Of a stretch of 64,000 nucleotides of DNA, positions 42,810 to 49,756 are shown piece after piece. Each line of letters starts with the position of its first letter. Position 1 is the stretch's first letter. The notes under the pieces were generated by a model. It was not told where the DNA came from. It was given only the letters and a program-made list of their open reading frames with translations, and searched no databases. The stretch is from Eubacteriales bacterium (GTDB lineage Bacteria; Bacillota; Clostridia; Lachnospirales; Lachnospiraceae): NCBI GenBank assembly GCA_030526005.1, contig JAUNDP010000012.1, positions 17,391 to 81,390 of the forward strand, read 5' to 3'. The translations under genes and the position numbers were made by a program.

Positions 42810-43571
42810 TCATTTTGTAATGAGGACATTGTGATAAGAAGAAATCCATCGTAAAATCTCATTTTTTTTCCGAGAAGAAAACATAATTTCTTGTCCGTCT
42901 GACATCGTAATCGTTTTTTTACTTAAATGGATGAAACGGACGAAATCCGCATTGATAATATAAGAACGGTGACAGCGGTAAAAACGGGAATCCAGCTTTG
43001 AAAGAACATTGTTTAAGTTACTGTTAAATTCAAGCTGCATATTTATGGTATATAAAGTCACTTTATGGGGCTGGGTATTTGTCTCAAAATATAAAATTTC
43101 ATCGAGAGAAACAAAAGAAACGCAATCTCCGATTTTCACTGAAAATGTTTTTTGACGAGAATCTCTGATACAGGCATGTTTTTTCAAAGCATTTGAGAGA
43201 CATTGAAAAATCTGATCGGAAAGAGTCTCTGGATGATCTTTTATAATATAGTCAAGCACTTCTAACTTCATCTGAAAGGTAAGCGATGCCATTTCAGAAT
43301 GAGAGGTGATAAAGACGATAAAACCTCTTGGATCTATTTCGCGGATTTTCTGTGCAAGTTCCAGTCCATCTATATCTGCATTCAGATTAATATCCAAAAA
43401 ATAAATACCAGTATGCTGGGAAGAGCCGGTAGCATCTAAAATAGTATGCGGATCTGTGGAAGCGGCCGCAATAGACAGATCAAGGTTATAGATCAAGATG
43501 TATTTTTGAATAGATTCTTTGATATATGTTAATTGAGGAATTTCATCCTCACAGATATAGATGTAAAGCAT
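42810..43571 (-). CDS. LytTR-type response regulator (AgrA-like)
   Basis: 253 residues, RBS GAGGGAG. A receiver domain (about 1-120) has acidic pair E8/D9, phospho-acceptor D60 in Y-F-L-D-I-N-L and T88. The C-terminal LytTR DNA-binding domain (about 140-245) includes R-F-Y-R-C-H-R-S-Y-I-I-N. It is the expected output regulator for the AgrC-like kinase at 44.2-45.5 kb. It is transcribed away from agrB with a TGATATAAT promoter on the minus strand near 43613-43618. Probably binds 21-bp-spaced repeats upstream of agrD (45602-45631). Confidence 0.9.
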   Translation of the reverse strand: MLYIYICEDEIPQLTYIKESIQKYILIYNLDLSIAAASTDPHTILDATGSSQHTGIYFLDINLNADIDGLELAQKIREIDPRGFIVFITSHSEMASLTFQMKLEVLDYIIKDHPETLSDQIFQCLSNALKKHACIRDSRQKTFSVKIGDCVSFVSLDEILYFETNTQPHKVTLYTINMQLEFNSNLNNVLSKLDSRFYRCHRSYIINADFVRFIHLSKKTITMSDGQEIMFSSRKKNEILRWISSYHNVLITK

Positions 43572-43646
43572 AAAGTCTCTCCCTCATAAAAAATAAAAAA
43601 ATATACAGCTTCATTATATCAAAAGAAAGAAAGGGAAAAAAGAGTT

Positions 43647-44195
43647 TTGAGAAAATATTTTAGCTTCAGTTCTGACAGAAGTGAATTGGAAAAGGCACAG
43701 ATTTTATATGGAATACAGGTACTGTGGCATAATATAAAAACGACAGTGATTATTTTTGCAGTAGCATTACTTCTCGATATATTCTGCGGCACATTTTGGA
43801 CATTTTTATCTTTTGGGATGTTTCGGATGTTTGCCGGAGGTCTGCATTTAAATACGACTGTGGGATGTCTGCTCACAACAGGAAGCGTCGCGATTGGCGG
43901 AGGAATTTTAGGAAATCATCTTATATTTCATCCGTGGCTGCTGTTTTTTATCTATTGTCTGATCTTTACAGGCGTTGTACTGTTTGCACCGCAGGGAACA
44001 GTGAACAATCCTTTTTCAGAAGATAATCAGAAAAAAATGAAAAAACGTTCCATGATTCTTGTCTTGATCTACGCAGTCATTTCCGTATCCGGAATAGAAA
44101 AGATCAGCTCTTGGATTACGATAGGAGCAATTGCAGAGCTGATCACAGTTATTATTTTATATGTTCAGAAGAAATCCGTCAGGAAAAAGGGATAG
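43647..44195 (+). CDS. agrB: AgrB-type peptide-processing membrane protease
   Basis: 182 residues from a TTG start (AAAGGGA about 10 bases upstream). Four to six transmembrane helices. The catalytic pair of AgrB cysteine proteases is present as H67 and C74 in G-G-L-H-L-N-T-T-V-G-C, the same 7-residue spacing as S. aureus H77/C84. AgrB cuts the C-terminal tail from AgrD and cyclises the signal peptide. It runs opposite to the kinase gene and their 3' ends overlap by 17 bp. Its own promoter is not obvious. Confidence 0.9.
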   Translation: MRKYFSFSSDRSELEKAQILYGIQVLWHNIKTTVIIFAVALLLDIFCGTFWTFLSFGMFRMFAGGLHLNTTVGCLLTTGSVAIGGGILGNHLIFHPWLLFFIYCLIFTGVVLFAPQGTVNNPFSEDNQKKMKKRSMILVLIYAVISVSGIEKISSWITIGAIAELITVIILYVQKKSVRKKG

Positions 44196-45492
44196 TCAAA
44201 CGCTGCTCAAAGATATGATCTTTCATCGCGGTTTGATGTAAAACGTGTGGATATTGCGATAAAATTTTTTCAGCGTTATAAAGTCCCAGACCGCGAAGCG
44301 CTCCTTTTGTAGAAAATGCAGGGTCTTTCAACTGACTGTATGGAATCTCATCACCGCTGTAAGTGTTTTTGACAGAAATAACAATGGTATTTGGAAAAGT
44401 TACAATGGCAAACCAGATCTGACGCGATTCTGATTGGAGTGCAGCCTCGACAGCATTATCGAGATAGATGCCAAGAAGGCGCGCCAGATCCAGCGTCTCC
44501 ATACTAATTTGTTCCAAAGGATCTAAAATTTCAATGGAAACAAAGAGCCCCATTTCGTGTGCATAGATTAGTTTCGCAGAGATCATACCTTTTAATTCAG
44601 GAATTTTTAGATTGCTTAAAGTCCCAAGCCGATAGGTTTCATTCGTATATTGCTTGCCAAAAGGCAATACTTTATCATAAAAGTACACTTCTAATTTATC
44701 AAATTGTTTCATTTCAAAATATTCCGTCATAGAAAGCATAATATTTGCATAGTCATGCTTGAAGGTACGCAGTTCAAGATTCATATCTTCAATTTTTTCT
44801 GTGTACTGCTGTAAAGTTTCATATAACTTTTCTTTTTCTTTCTGCTTTTCAACAGCAATTAATGTCTTCACAGAATGAAAAGCAGAGAAAAGTGTCCATA
44901 AAGTACAGCAGATAACAAGAAAAAAATTAAAATATACGATAGGGTCTGTGTAACCTAATTTTTCGCCTGCAATGAAATTCAGAAGAACTATCAGCAGACA
45001 GATAAAAAGAGTAGGAAAGACCAGTTTTAATACTTCATTCAATTCTAAAACAGATTGAAATTTTTTCTTCAAAAAAGGCAGCAGGAAATGTGAGAGCAGG
45101 AAACAAATAACCAATTCCACAGTAAGACCGGCAAGACAGCTCACAGTCATCAGAGAATAATCTGTATGTGTTGAGGCAACACCATAGTCAAGTCCAGTTA
45201 AAACGATACTTATAAGCTGATCAATCAGAACAAGCAAAAAATAAGCGACAATAACAGAACAAACAGTGGGCAGGTTTTTATTTGTTATTTTACATAAGTA
45301 AATAGAGACAACGACCAAGAGAAAAATAACAGCCGCATTGCTTGTGGTGGCAATAAGAATCAGAGAGAAAAATAAAAGGAAATATAAAGTTAAATATTGT
45401 TTTATCGAAAGCCGATAAGGCAAAAAAGTAATAATAGGGAAAAAATAAAGGAAACTTGATAAAAAAATAGAAAAAATAAACATAAAAATCAC
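44179..45492 (-). CDS. AgrC-like sensor histidine kinase (GHKL, HPK10-type)
   Basis: 437 residues. Six or seven transmembrane segments in the first ~205 residues form the peptide-sensing part. A coiled region (about 210-240) leads to the kinase domain with phospho-accepting H246 in F-K-H-D-Y-A-N-I, N-box N346 in L-D-N-A-V-E-A-A and G-L-G-L-Y-N-A-E-K near 405. As in AgrC, no separate HAMP or PAS domain is present. It would sense the extracellular cyclic peptide and phosphorylate the LytTR regulator. It is transcribed convergent with agrB and divergent from agrD. Confidence 0.9.
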   Translation of the reverse strand: MIFMFIFSIFLSSFLYFFPIITFLPYRLSIKQYLTLYFLLFFSLILIATTSNAAVIFLLVVVSIYLCKITNKNLPTVCSVIVAYFLLVLIDQLISIVLTGLDYGVASTHTDYSLMTVSCLAGLTVELVICFLLSHFLLPFLKKKFQSVLELNEVLKLVFPTLFICLLIVLLNFIAGEKLGYTDPIVYFNFFLVICCTLWTLFSAFHSVKTLIAVEKQKEKEKLYETLQQYTEKIEDMNLELRTFKHDYANIMLSMTEYFEMKQFDKLEVYFYDKVLPFGKQYTNETYRLGTLSNLKIPELKGMISAKLIYAHEMGLFVSIEILDPLEQISMETLDLARLLGIYLDNAVEAALQSESRQIWFAIVTFPNTIVISVKNTYSGDEIPYSQLKDPAFSTKGALRGLGLYNAEKILSQYPHVLHQTAMKDHIFEQRLTIPFS

Positions 45493-45601
45493 CCTTCTAA
45501 AAATATTTATAGAAAAATTATAAAATTCTATAAAATATATGTCAAGAAACTTAAATCGACAATATTTTCTAAAAAATAAAAATAAAAATGTAAAAATATA
45601 G

Positions 45602-45631
45602 CATTCAGGACTGAAAAACGATCATTTAGGA
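45602..45631 (+). promoter_or_regulatory. Candidate LytTR (Agr-box-like) operator pair upstream of agrD
   Basis: CATTCAGGA (45602-45610) and CATTTAGGA (45623-45631) match at 8 of 9 bases and start exactly 21 bp (two helical turns) apart. TCATTTAGGAAA resembles the S. aureus AgrA site ACAGTTAGGCAA at 9 of 12. The pair lies just ahead of a promoter with good -10 TGATATAAT (TATAAT at 45661-45666) and a poor -35, as expected for an activator-dependent promoter. Confidence 0.65.
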
Positions 45632-45657
45632 AAAAAACGTAGAATTTCAGAAAGAAG

Positions 45658-45666
45658 TGATATAAT
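45658..45666 (+). promoter_or_regulatory. Extended -10 of agrD promoter
   Basis: TGATATAAT with the -10 at 45661-45666; the -35 position (45638-45643, CGTAGA) has no consensus. Start predicted near 45673, 21 bp before the agrD ATG. Confidence 0.6.
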
Positions 45667-45693
45667 AATGATACATAAAAGGGGGAAAGAAAA

Positions 45694-45834
45694 ATGGGAA
45701 TGAAACGAAGAACAGAAGAACTTTTAATATGGCTGGGAAAGCACAGTGTTGGAAAATCTATATTTTGGGGCGTGTATGAACCGCCTGTTCCACAGGTTCT
45801 GAAACAGCAAGAAGAAAAGAAAAAATGCCAGTGA
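45694..45834 (+). CDS. agrD: AgrD-like cyclic peptide signal precursor (short ORF)
   Basis: 46 residues, RBS AAAGGGGGAAAG. The N-terminal ~20 residues form a positively charged amphipathic helix (M-G-M-K-R-R-T-E-E-L-L-I-W-L-G). The putative signal core follows (K-S-I-F-W-G-V-Y), then the acidic/proline recognition tail E-P-P-V-P-Q-V-L and a Lys/Gln-rich end. Such E-P-x-x-P tails are characteristic of AgrD. The core has no cysteine; S22 could close a lactone. The only Cys (C45) is in the tail. It is too short for a long-ORF scan and stands alone after the kinase gene. Confidence 0.8.
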   Translation: MGMKRRTEELLIWLGKHSVGKSIFWGVYEPPVPQVLKQQEEKKKCQ

Positions 45835-45977: not shown

Positions 45978-46008
45978 ACACAAATCTAATTTGAGAGGAG
46001 TAATAGGT

Positions 46009-46404
46009 ATGAAGCGGATGTTAAAAACATCGGCAGCGATAGCAGGAAGCGTTGGACTGCTGGCGGGAGCGTGCTATGCGAATAATAGTGTGGATGAATA
46101 TTTTGAATATTATGTATCCAGAGTGAGATGTGTTACAAGACTAAGAGAGAAAACAGATACTTCTTCATGTTACATGATTTATACTGGTGGGGATCCAGAA
46201 TATATTTATGGAAGTGTATATGCTTCAGATCAGGTGACAAATATGACAGTAGGAGCCTTTTCCTATGCTTGCTATCGAGGACAGTCTATCTATATACCAT
46301 CAAATACATATGAATATGGATACAGAAGTTGTTGTCTGTCTATCTTAGGACCAAGCTATACTCCACAACATGCATATGGATATTGGAGCCCAGACAGTGT
46401 ATAA
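46009..46404 (+). CDS. Small secreted cysteine-rich protein (DUF2712-like)
   Basis: 131 residues from the ATG at 46009 (RBS GAGAGGAG). A signal sequence (about 1-24) fits both SPase I cleavage after C-Y-A and, weakly, a lipobox ending at C22. The mature part is rich in Tyr and Gly and has five or six Cys (22, 41, 54, 88, 108, 109). It ends G-Y-W-S-P-D-S-V, and Y-E-Y-G-Y-R-S is present; these match my memory of DUF2712 proteins, which occur with ABC exporters in bacteriocin-like loci. It follows agrD by 174 bp with no terminator between, so it is probably agr-controlled. Function unproven. Confidence 0.65.
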   Translation: MKRMLKTSAAIAGSVGLLAGACYANNSVDEYFEYYVSRVRCVTRLREKTDTSSCYMIYTGGDPEYIYGSVYASDQVTNMTVGAFSYACYRGQSIYIPSNTYEYGYRSCCLSILGPSYTPQHAYGYWSPDSV

Positions 46405-46641: not shown

Positions 46642-46688
46642 ATAGGATTATTCAGATAATCTTTGGTTGTATGAAGAGGAGAGAGAAC

Positions 46689-47354
46689 ATGAAAAAGTTG
46701 AAGAAAAAAGTGATAATGATTCTATGCTGTTGCCTTTTTTTGACAGGGTGCAGTATAGACAGCGAATATCTAATTTTAAAGAAATCAGAAATATTAGATA
46801 CAAGACGGTTTGACAAAGAATATGAAAAAAAGATGAAAAAAGCTCTAGAGAATGGAACAGCACAAAAACGTCATTTCAGGTTTGAATGGGTGAGTAAAAG
46901 TGTACAAGATAAACTGCCGGAGTATGTAGAAAAAGAACGCTATGTGAAATTGGAAGATGGACAAGTATATGAGCGTTATGCAGAATTGAAGGAAGGACAG
47001 GTGTATTTAGAAATTGTTTTAAATATTACGAATGATATGGAAACAGATCAGGAATGGAATATTGGAAATAGTAAACTACTTATTCCGGGAAGTTGGGAAG
47101 AATTTCATCCATACTATGAAATTAGATATTTTAGTAAGCATCGTCCAATCGTAAGTAAAGAAGCAATGAAACAATATAATACATGGACTTTGGAAGCAAA
47201 AAAGACGTATCAAGTAAAATTAGGATATTGTGTAGGTGAGAAGGATGTAAATGATCCTAATTTGTTATTACAAATTTCGCCGTATTATTTTTCAAATAAC
47301 GATCCTTATTTAGGCGGAATGATCGCTTATTACCGTGTAAATGAAGAAGAATAA
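46689..47354 (+). CDS. Lipoprotein, first of a tandem pair
   Basis: 221 residues from the ATG at 46689 (RBS GAGGAGAGAG). A lipobox L-T-G-C gives a membrane anchor at C22. The body has a conserved W-V-S-K-S-V-Q-D-K-L-P segment and an Ig-like part with L-N-I-T-N-D-M-E-T-D-Q-E-W-N-I-G. It is a close paralogue of the next gene with equal length. Ig-like lipoproteins in such clusters (DUF4352/DUF5028-like) are of unknown function; immunity against the secreted peptide is a guess. AT-rich composition sets it apart from flanking housekeeping genes. Confidence 0.7.
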   Translation: MKKLKKKVIMILCCCLFLTGCSIDSEYLILKKSEILDTRRFDKEYEKKMKKALENGTAQKRHFRFEWVSKSVQDKLPEYVEKERYVKLEDGQVYERYAELKEGQVYLEIVLNITNDMETDQEWNIGNSKLLIPGSWEEFHPYYEIRYFSKHRPIVSKEAMKQYNTWTLEAKKTYQVKLGYCVGEKDVNDPNLLLQISPYYFSNNDPYLGGMIAYYRVNEEE

Positions 47355-47501
47355 ACGAAAGTGTATTCAGAAAAGATATAAAATTTACATATTTTTATAT
47401 CCATGAAACTAATCATTAAATTTTTCTGTCTAATAGATAAGAAGAAAATAAAAAGCAACTTATCAAAGAAACATGTTCGTGAAGCAGAGAGGAGAGAGAG
47501 C

Positions 47502-48167
47502 ATGAAAAACTTAGGACAGAAAGTAATAATAATTCTATGCTGTTGCCTTTTTCTAACAGGGTGCGGTATAGATAGTGAATATCTAATTTTAAAGAAATCA
47601 GAAATATTAGATACAAAACGATTTGATAAGGAAATAGAAAAGAAAAGGAAAAAAGAATTAGAAAATGGTTCTTTTCAAAAACGTCATTTCAGATTTGAAT
47701 GGGTGAGTAAAAGTGTACAAGATAAACTGCCGGAGTATGTAGAAAAAGAACGCTATGTGAAATTTGAAGATGGACAAGTATATGAGCTTTTTACAGAATT
47801 AAAAGAAGATCAGTTGTATCTGGAAATTATCCTTAATATTACGAATGATATGGAAACAGATCAGGAATGGAATATAGGAAATAGTAGTTTATTTATTCCG
47901 GGAAGTTGGGAAGAATTCCGAGCAGGATATCAGATTATATACTTTAGTAAGCATCGTCCAATCGTAAGTAAAGAAACAATGAAACAATATTATACATGGA
48001 CTTTAGAAGCGAAAAAAACATATCAGGTAACATTGGGATATGCGGTAGACAAGGAGGATATAAATGATCCAAATTTATTGCTTCAGCTTTCTTCCTATTA
48101 CTTTCAAAGAACCGATCCTTATTTAGGGGGAATGATCGCTTATTACCGCGTGAATGAAGAGGAATAA
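47502..48167 (+). CDS. Lipoprotein, second of a tandem pair
   Basis: 221 residues from the ATG at 47502 (RBS GAGAGGAGAG); a longer upstream frame lacks an RBS and a signal peptide. Lipobox L-T-G-C at C22. Most of its length aligns with the first copy, and a stretch of ~80 bp of DNA around 47680-47765 is nearly identical to 46865-46950, so the duplication is recent. Differences cluster near the C-terminal half (e.g. F-R-A-G-Y-Q-I versus F-H-P-Y-Y-E-I), suggesting diverging binding surfaces. Confidence 0.7.
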   Translation: MKNLGQKVIIILCCCLFLTGCGIDSEYLILKKSEILDTKRFDKEIEKKRKKELENGSFQKRHFRFEWVSKSVQDKLPEYVEKERYVKFEDGQVYELFTELKEDQLYLEIILNITNDMETDQEWNIGNSSLFIPGSWEEFRAGYQIIYFSKHRPIVSKETMKQYYTWTLEAKKTYQVTLGYAVDKEDINDPNLLLQLSSYYFQRTDPYLGGMIAYYRVNEEE

Positions 48168-48236: not shown

Positions 48237-49058
48237 GTGAGGAATGCGTGTAAAGTAGAGATAAAACGTGCATTTCAAAGCACGGCAATGAAAATAATAA
48301 TAATCATAGGAGCTTTGCTGGCGGTATGGCATACAGTGGATACATATAAGAGCTGGCAAGAGTATCTGCAGATACGGGAGCAGTATACATCGCCGCTGTT
48401 TTCAATGAGATCTTTGTATACAGAATTAATGATGATGAATGGAAATGAAATACAGTATGTACTATTTCATAATTTGCTTCCGCTGTTTGCTGCTTTTCCG
48501 TTTGCTGTTTCCTATTATACAGACCGAAAAAACGGATATCAGAAAAATCTTTATGTGAGAGAGACACGCAAAGAATATTTTTGCGGAAAGATCAGCGCTG
48601 TATTTTTGTCAGGGGGAACGGCGGCAGTGACGCCAGCCATTTTAGATTTTGTTTTCCTATCAACATTTATGCCGGCTGTAAAACCGGATTCCTGCGTGAT
48701 GAATGGAACGCTTTCACCGGCGGGCAACTGGCAGAATTTATTTTATGAACAGCCTTTTGTATACTTTATAATTTACATCGCAATTTATTTTGTCGGAGGA
48801 GGAATTTTAGCTCTGTTTGCACTGGCGGTTTCAAGATGGATGAAAAAGTCGCTTCTTGCTTTTATGAGTCCTTTTCTTTTATGTATCGTAATGCAGCTTT
48901 TGCTGAAAGACAACCGAGGCTTTGTGCCATATACCTTTTTGAATATGAAACAGGAAAATCGTTTTCAGATCTGGCAGATGATCGTCACTTTGGGAGCGAT
49001 AGCCGGAGTTTCCATATGGGGATTTTTGAGGAAAAATAAAAAGGAAGAAATTTTATAA
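48237..49058 (+). CDS. ABC-2-type membrane protein
   Basis: 273 residues from a GTG (RBS AAGGGGGAAAAG). An amphipathic start (C-K-V-E-I-K-R-A-F), a first transmembrane helix, a large outer loop and five more helices match ABC-2 permeases of peptide export/immunity systems. It opens the five-gene unit with the ATPase next to it. Resembles the first permease of bacteriocin-immunity transporters such as those with DUF2705; exact family unverified. Confidence 0.75.
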   Translation: MRNACKVEIKRAFQSTAMKIIIIIGALLAVWHTVDTYKSWQEYLQIREQYTSPLFSMRSLYTELMMMNGNEIQYVLFHNLLPLFAAFPFAVSYYTDRKNGYQKNLYVRETRKEYFCGKISAVFLSGGTAAVTPAILDFVFLSTFMPAVKPDSCVMNGTLSPAGNWQNLFYEQPFVYFIIYIAIYFVGGGILALFALAVSRWMKKSLLAFMSPFLLCIVMQLLLKDNRGFVPYTFLNMKQENRFQIWQMIVTLGAIAGVSIWGFLRKNKKEEIL

Positions 49059-49123
49059 ATAAGAGATAGGAATCGATGCGATTTTAATCGGGAGAGGTTC
49101 AAGAGATGAGAGGGGGCGACAAA

Positions 49124-49756
49124 ATGGACATTAAGATTCGCAATGTGACAAAAAAAATAAAAGATGCGATCGTTTTAGACCGTGTGAATATGGAGCTGAA
49201 AAGCGGAACGGTATATGGATTGCAAGGAAAAAACGGATCCGGAAAGACAATGCTGCTTCGTCTGCTGTGCGGTTTTATTCTGCCTTCAGAGGGAGAAGTG
49301 GAAATTAATGGAAAGGTATTAGGAAAGGAAATTTCATTTCCTGAAAATACAGGGGTTCTCATTGAAAACCCAGCATTTTTAGATTATTTTACAGGATATG
49401 ACAATCTAAAAATATTGTCTGAGATCAGAAATAAGATGACAGAAAAAGAGATTGAAGAAATTTTAGAAAAAGTAGGATTAGATCCAAATAATAAGAGAAA
49501 ATATCGGAAGTATTCGCTTGGAATGAAGCAAAGACTTGGCATAGCATGTGCATTTATGGAAAAACCGGATCTGATTTTGCTGGATGAGCCTACGAATGCG
49601 CTGGACCCGGAAGGGATTGAGTGTCTGCATCGCCTTGTGGAGGAGGCAAAAGAAAGAAAAGCATTGATTATTTTGGCTTGTCATGACGCAGAGGAACTGC
49701 ATCAGATGGCAGACGTCGTGATACAGATGGAACGAGGGAGAGTGATGGGAGGATGA
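49124..49756 (+). CDS. ABC transporter ATP-binding protein
   Basis: 210 residues from the ATG at 49124; an ATG at 49106 overlaps the GAGGGGGC ribosome site. Walker A G-K-N-G-S-G-K-T-M, signature Y-S-L-G-M-K-Q-R-L-G (a G in place of the usual S-G-G-Q, as in many drug/bacteriocin ABC proteins), Walker B L-I-L-L-D-E-P-T-N-A-L-D, H-loop A-C-H-D. It energises the flanking permeases. Its last codon overlaps the next gene's start. Confidence 0.92.
   Translation: MDIKIRNVTKKIKDAIVLDRVNMELKSGTVYGLQGKNGSGKTMLLRLLCGFILPSEGEVEINGKVLGKEISFPENTGVLIENPAFLDYFTGYDNLKILSEIRNKMTEKEIEEILEKVGLDPNNKRKYRKYSLGMKQRLGIACAFMEKPDLILLDEPTNALDPEGIECLHRLVEEAKERKALIILACHDAEELHQMADVVIQMERGRVMGG

Follow-up and report, generated by a model that had tools for sequence, protein, structure and literature searches.

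How might a quorum-sensing system of the Agr type work when its four genes alternate between the two strands of the DNA, and when the residue that ought to close the ring of its peptide signal appears to be a serine? The question is raised by a locus at positions 42810 to 45834 of a 64,000-nucleotide stretch of DNA from a gut-type bacterium of the Lachnospiraceae, catalogued as Eubacteriales bacterium (GenBank assembly GCA_030526005.1, contig JAUNDP010000012.1); we call the whole stretch the window, and the draft genome from which it comes (2.51 megabases, 68 contigs, 95% complete) G000. Our answer, to which we would give roughly seven chances in ten, is that the locus encodes a working Agr system belonging to a separate subfamily within the Lachnospiraceae, in which a six-residue serine-lactone signal, a steadily made kinase and a box-driven agrD serve a bacteriocin-like output. 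The case is strongest in the gene order and in the position of the AgrD nucleophile, and weakest in the size of the ring, the cut site and the function of the output. An earlier note on this DNA had found the four genes; it did not mention that a serine stands where the ring should have its cysteine, that the ring residue is shifted, that there is a box, or that the neighborhood is bacteriocin-like.

A Complete Agr Set on Alternating Strands

The four genes can be read directly from the DNA. An AgrA-like response regulator lies at 42810..43571 on the minus strand; its REC and LytTR domains both exceed their Pfam cut-offs (PF00072, Response_reg, 43.2 bits; PF04397, LytTR, 69.1 bits), and its phospho-acceptor is D60. 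The AgrB peptidase/cyclase follows at 43647..44195 on the plus strand, with a TTG start and catalytic H67 and C74 (PF04647, 101.9 bits against a cut-off of 23), and then, back on the minus strand at 44179..45492, comes an AgrC-like sensor kinase with H246 and N346 (HATPase_c_5, PF14501, 58.2 bits against a cut-off of 22), whose 3' end overlaps that of agrB by 17 base pairs (bp; 44179-44195). The last of the four is agrD, 46 amino acids long, at 45694..45834 on the plus strand. The earlier note had claimed just this order, on these strands, and these catalytic residues, and both claims stand: every frame lies where it had been placed, and the residues are invariant in alignments of 10 AgrBs, 11 kinases and 9 regulators, the window's own sequences included. 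A peptidase with its His and Cys, a GHKL kinase of the AgrC type, a REC-LytTR regulator and an AgrD with nucleophile and tail are among the things that one asks of an Agr set, and all four are here; what the locus is not, with its four genes on alternating strands, is a one-strand agrBDCA operon. Its regulator and kinase also fall short of the staphylococcal equivalogs, scoring 182.1 bits against quorum_RR_AgrA (NF046049; cut-off 400) and 185.6 bits against HisKinAgrCStaph (NF046015; cut-off 500), which are nonetheless their best NCBIfam matches. Judged from sequence, the window holds every part of an Agr system, in a layout that is distinct and recurrent.

Is so short a frame as agrD a gene at all? 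The earlier note had warned that a scan for long frames would overlook it, and standard models do overlook it: Pfam has no match to 45694-45834, and in the search by hidden Markov model that the note had proposed, the C-terminal part alone matched TIGR04223 (14.3 bits, E 0.034), below that model's cut-off of 19. The same model matches, at E≤10, 5 of 9 AgrDs of the subfamily. Another genome of the genus, G001, carries a 48-amino-acid AgrD at the equivalent place, with 58% identity over query residues 3-42 (E 4e-14). Between the two genes, substitutions number 8, 2 and 14 at the first, second and third positions of 26 core codons (nonsynonymous divergence, dN, 0.19; synonymous divergence, dS, 4.4, which is saturated), and 16, 9 and 24 over 44 codons, a span for which dS was not computable. 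Because the frame is conserved at the same place in G001, and because its substitutions fall mostly at third positions, we take it to be real, beyond chance. Equivalents occupy this same place in all 12 of the other distinct interleaved loci described below.

Could the locus nevertheless have decayed, or could this frame be spurious and the true signal gene lie elsewhere? We think that very improbable. The AgrD score below the curated cut-off leans that way, as does a third genome of the genus, G002, in which no AgrB match was found; on the other side stand the conservation just described, the intact catalytic residues and the single AgrB found in the 68 contigs, the window's own. An agrB lying beside some other agrD, the arrangement that the earlier note had set against its own proposal, is thus absent as far as the draft shows. 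A search of plasmids for AgrD gave no match, and a second AgrD-like match in G001 (E 0.17) was rejected, lying as it does antisense within a 653-amino-acid open reading frame.

Recurrence and Descent of the Order

The earlier note called the orientation shuffled, which would suggest a one-off, and proposed a search of Lachnospiraceae genomes for the same four-gene order. The search finds it: by direct count, 13 distinct loci have this order, the window's among them. Closest to hand is G001, one of three genomes of the genus, with an AgrB at 56% identity and the identical four-gene order. PF04647 was found in 98 of the 250 genomes scanned in the family, and our AgrB survey of 82 loci was composed of one locus each from 79 of the 96 such genomes besides G000 and G001 (the 17 genomes with the weakest best matches, G093 included, were omitted), a second locus from G027, which makes 80, and those of G001 and the window. 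Interleaving is complete in four of these loci, namely the window, G001, G027 (Coprococcus catus) and, as a mirror image, G167; in two more it is partial, G011 with no regulator nearby and G227 with no AgrD and an assembly gap. In G227 (L135/L281) kinase, AgrB and regulator are interleaved, and the place of agrD is taken by a secreted-type protein whose frame is broken by that gap.

A wider net was cast with a profile of 11 kinases, which at E≤1e-40 matched 56 of 397 genomes of the family and 44 of 391 of the class, a few genomes being common to both; 36 of the stronger matches, taken with their flanks, brought in Catenibacillus scindens and Anaerosacchariphilus polymeriproducens. When named genomes were scanned with the kinase alignment, this yielded, among the best 79 of 454 matching stretches, 13 that are completely interleaved, some of them already in the set; the same scan with AgrB as a single protein gave no match. 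After the removal of 14 repeated contigs, the larger set holds 127 loci with AgrB, of which 14 are completely interleaved, or 13 distinct ones, L125 and L289 being near-identical; similarity of the kinases helped to select the set, and 13 of 127 should not be read as an unbiased frequency. The order occurs in Coprococcus catus, Catenibacillus scindens and Claveliimonas, among others; in one of the 13, L278, the AgrB frame is merely a fragment. Ten further loci have AgrB and kinase convergent and lack the full order, and the commonest orders of the set are two single-strand ones, with 17 loci each. Among the 14 interleaved loci the 3' ends of agrB and kinase overlap by 8-30 bp in six, abut in one, and are separated by 3-13 bp in six and by 110 bp in one.

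How did such an order arise? In a tree of the 82 AgrBs, midpoint-rooted and with many long branches, the six interleaved or partly interleaved loci form one clade (support 98/82, present in 98% of bootstrap trees). A quick tree of 74 kinases puts the same six, together with five whose genes are ordered otherwise, in a group of 11 that has a long stem (Shimodaira-Hasegawa-like approximate likelihood-ratio test, SH-aLRT, 100), within which, unlike in the AgrB tree, the six do not form a clade (2 changes; L121 outside). These two trees lead us to regard the kinase subfamily as distinct, going by its sequences, and to suggest that the interleaved layout may have a single origin there. In the five members of the group that are ordered otherwise, kinase and regulator lie on the strand opposite agrB, and in four (L101, L108, L122 and L133) opposite agrD as well; in the fifth, L148, which is cut by the end of its contig, no AgrD was seen.

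Serine or Cysteine at Position -6

What would such an AgrD make? The window's peptide reads KS-IFWGV-YEPPVP near its end, with Ser22 as the predicted ring residue. To locate the ring residue we applied a single anchoring rule to two sets of AgrDs, counting residues back from an anchor in the cut-site motif. Among 48 distinct AgrDs from loci gathered by way of the kinase subfamily, 39 have Ser or Cys at -6, 36 of them there only (24 Ser) and 3 also at -5; six have it at -5 only and three at neither position. Three of these nine apparent exceptions (L122, L320 and L339) are misplaced by the anchor rule, and all three have, by eye, Ser at -6. Across the remainder of the survey (67 distinct AgrDs) the rule is -5: Ser or Cys stands at -5 only in 57, at both positions in 7, at -6 only in 1 and at neither in 2, so that 8 of 67 have it at -6, against 39 of 48 in the subfamily. 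The residue at -6 in the 13 distinct interleaved loci is Ser in eight and Cys in five; the nucleophile of a macrocycle would show just such an exchange between the two residues at a single site. These positions are read directly from the sequences. Elsewhere in the family, too, a ring serine is common, accounting for 16 of the 57 AgrDs whose residue is confined to -5 (loci L070-L149).

In the known five-residue autoinducing peptides (AIPs), those of S. aureus and C. perfringens, the cysteine stands at -5 in the numbering used here. Since the nucleophile of the window's AgrD stands instead at -6, we predict a ring of six residues, closed by Ser22 in place of the usual Cys. Must it be so? The system might be the same Agr system with a ring of five (cut before V27, giving SIFWG), or with a linear active peptide, and its serine might be nothing special. 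The 16 serines just counted would suit that account, as would the five-membered rings of the S. aureus and C. perfringens AIPs (PMC7300355, in excerpt), the window's cut site being itself a prediction. Yet the [YFH][ED] anchor aligns with HQP/YQP, and in 39 of the 48 the nucleophile then sits a residue farther away; Cys itself stands at -6 in some subfamily members (L125, L276, L279, L280 and L285, for example); and C. acetobutylicum-type systems are predicted to be six-membered (PMC10301443, in excerpt). We therefore consider the smaller ring or linear peptide unlikely and keep to the six-residue serine lactone. Neither a serine alone nor a six-residue ring alone is new; a serine ring of six residues combined with interleaved genes is something that we did not meet in a limited search of the literature.

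Promoters and a LytTR-Type Repeat

The earlier note proposed that splitting the genes between strands allows processing, sensing and production of the signal to be controlled separately. In the window, the promoter sequences of kinase and agrD lend this indirect support. The kinase is preceded on the minus strand by TTGACA-17-TATAAT (45517..45545), which agrees with the consensus at 12 of 12 positions and was equaled by none of 200 shuffles; upstream of agrD no sigma-70 promoter above chance was found (160 of 200 shuffles were as good), and there lies on the plus strand a direct repeat of LytTR/AgrA type, CATTCAGGA-N12-CATTTAGGA, at 45602..45631 (18 of 18 positions, 21-bp period), with a weak third half-site reaching to 45652 and, read by eye 29 bp past the repeat, a -10 element TATAAT at 45661..45666. 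From this we infer that the kinase is made steadily and that the repeat is a candidate box for the window's regulator. LytTR regulators are described as binding 9-bp repeats, mostly with a 12-bp spacer, about 10 bp upstream of the -35 element (PMC6193735, in excerpt), and the agrD repeat fits this description.

A spacing of 28-30 bp between repeat and TATAAT is found also in G001, in G011, in G093 and at a second element on contig C50 of G000 itself (G000:C50:61525-61554; L065:4526-4555), which is near-identical to the agrD site through the -10 and precedes the gene of a 154-amino-acid membrane protein with no Pfam or NCBIfam match. A loose box pattern finds these 2 sites, agrD and C50, in the whole G000 genome, against 9 in a reversed control; a sharper one finds 2 in G000, 1 in G001 (before agrD) and none in G002 or in the controls. 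Our claims about the box rest on the stricter match, the two-mismatch search being set aside. Across the 14 interleaved loci, two of which are near-identical, a box of at least 15 of 18 stands before agrD in 5 (shuffles lead one to expect 0.04), before agrB in 2 of 14 (expected 0.00), before the kinase in 0 of 14 (0.08) and before the regulator in 2 of 16 (0.08). A strong promoter, 11 of 12, precedes the kinase in four of the 12 other distinct loci. We had entertained the idea that no kinase or regulator has a box in front of it, and dropped that idea: L273 has a box before two regulators. Beside the C50 element, a divergent gene encodes a 147-amino-acid secreted-type protein.

The pattern that suggests separate control in the window is, then, not general, the box standing before agrD in 5 of 14 loci. 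Does the interleaving mean anything for regulation? It could be an inherited order, spread vertically or horizontally and kept for compactness, and we regard this as a real possibility with the odds somewhat against it. The single AgrB clade speaks for inheritance, as does the lack of a box before agrD in the other 9 of 14 loci; set against these are the kinase and agrD promoters, which are of different kinds in the window and, with less contrast, in G001, and the five relatives of another order that keep kinase and regulator opposite agrB, four of them opposite agrD too.

A Working Model and Its Relatives

The reading that we favor runs as follows. AgrB would cut AgrD before YEPPVP, and the carboxyl end of IFWGV would close onto Ser22 to give the six-residue serine-lactone pheromone. 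The kinase, steadily made from its consensus promoter, would sense the pheromone and phosphorylate the LytTR regulator, which would bind the 21-bp-period repeat and turn agrD on, a positive feedback; it would also switch on the DUF2712 gene behind agrD and the second box-bearing promoter on C50. The output would most likely be a secreted bacteriocin-like protein with immunity or export of the ATP-binding cassette (ABC) type. That this describes a widespread, as yet unnamed Lachnospiraceae agr subfamily, with alternating strands, a steady sensor, autoinduction of the signal only, six-residue lactones in which Ser and Cys are interchangeable, and diverse antimicrobial or lanthipeptide outputs, is a more tentative proposal, to which we give just short of an even chance.

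A fair number of observations pull the other way. To the AgrD score, the AgrB-less G002 and the nine interleaved loci with no box before agrD must be added that the kinase promoter scores 10 of 12 or lower in 8 of the 12 other loci, that two regulators also have strong promoters (12 of 12 and 11 of 12), that the sharper pattern and the box consensus were derived from the same sites that they score, and that the 18-position box, searched in G000 at two mismatches, shows no excess (4 against 7 in the reversed control). The profile that found the subfamily's AgrDs was seeded with nine of its own members, which favors sequences like them, and L145, outside the subfamily set, has a Cys only at -6. 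As for the output, DUF2712 is a domain of no known function, which no paper in the literature searched was found to name, and an AlphaFold model of the protein, built from six sequences, is poor (predicted local distance difference test, pLDDT, 59).

How does the locus compare with systems already known? With the agrBDCA of Staphylococcus aureus it shares the AgrB His/Cys peptidase, the AgrD tail, the AgrC-type kinase and the LytTR AgrA, but there four co-transcribed genes make a five-member thiolactone (PMC7300355, in excerpt), whereas here the genes alternate, the ring residue is Ser and six residues are predicted. Comparable too is the agrBD/agrCA of Clostridium acetobutylicum, with its predicted six-membered ring, its more than one transcription unit and a LanM-like gene beside the locus, as in the relative G011; its ring is closed by Cys and its agrB and agrD lie together (PMC10301443, in excerpt), whereas the window has Ser, and a kinase between the two genes. 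A serine-closed lactone, predicted here, is shared with the AIP of the Staphylococcus intermedius group, a nonamer with a central Ser (PMC3673130, in excerpt), and with the FsrD/GBAP of Enterococcus faecalis, a lactone closed between Ser3 and Met11 and derived from an fsrABDC operon (PMC7028047, in excerpt); in both, ring size and gene order differ from the window's. The autoregulated promoters of the LytTR regulatory systems (LRS) of S. mutans and others have the same 9-bp direct repeats, mostly with a 12-bp spacer, just upstream of the -35, but those systems pair a LytTR protein with a membrane protein, are not two-component, and have repeat sequences that differ from the window's (PMC6193735, in excerpt).

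Why should this matter? The signature of these AgrDs, mostly [KR]-[SC]-x5-[YFH]-[ED], offers a way to recognize genes of which at least the window's falls below the current model's cut-off. Strain records exist for species that carry such AgrDs (Coprococcus catus, Catenibacillus scindens, Schaedlerella arabinosiphila, Claveliimonas monacensis and Anaerosacchariphilus polymeriproducens), and a natural exchange of Ser and Cys at one position would let lactone and thiolactone signaling be compared directly. The loci also suggest a link between quorum sensing and bacteriocin-like outputs in gut-type Firmicutes.

Probable Output Genes

Behind agrD on the plus strand, at 46009..46404, lies the probable output gene, encoding a secreted-type DUF2712 protein (PF10916, 36.8 bits for a longer frame that begins at 45991) with a signal peptide recognized by eye; no terminator is called between agrD and this gene, and the two are probably co-transcribed. 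Then come two genes that look by eye like those of lipoproteins (46671-47354, with a DUF5027 match below cut-off, and 47403-48167), all on the plus strand, as are a membrane protein with no Pfam match over cut-off that we take by its position for the ABC permease (48237-49058) and an ABC ATPase (49106-49756) whose best NCBIfam match is the lantibiotic-protection ATPase TIGR03740 (181.6 bits, cut-off 309.75). The lipoprotein-like pair at 46671-48167 is tandem and closely similar, an apparent duplication. It is this gene context that makes a bacteriocin-like output the most likely one for the window.

Other loci have candidate outputs of their own. Coprococcus catus repeats the window's arrangement, with a DUF2712 gene after agrD (L134:7165-7587, 32.1 bits) and beyond it what look by eye like genes for a lipoprotein, for membrane proteins and for an ABC ATPase. 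A. polymeriproducens has four similar lantibiotic-precursor-like genes in tandem after agrD (L208:7410-8380), and the one peptide tested of the four belongs to the salivaricin M family (102.8 bits, cut-off 60). In G011, LanM genes are found to either side of the locus (654 and 556 bits, cut-off 304), and two further boxes stand before the gene of a 71-amino-acid peptide with no NCBIfam match and before a membrane-protein gene. The Schaedlerella locus has a radical S-adenosylmethionine (SAM) enzyme, and several other loci have, by eye, small proteins with signal peptides and ABC-like genes; most of the small proteins tested at these other loci had no Pfam match. Finally, in Lachnospiraceae bacterium 28-4 (L283:4402-4755) an AgrD-like start (GEHSVGKSQILGI) continues into a 117-amino-acid protein with a membrane stretch, which resembles an AgrD fused to a secreted product and may be due to a sequence error.

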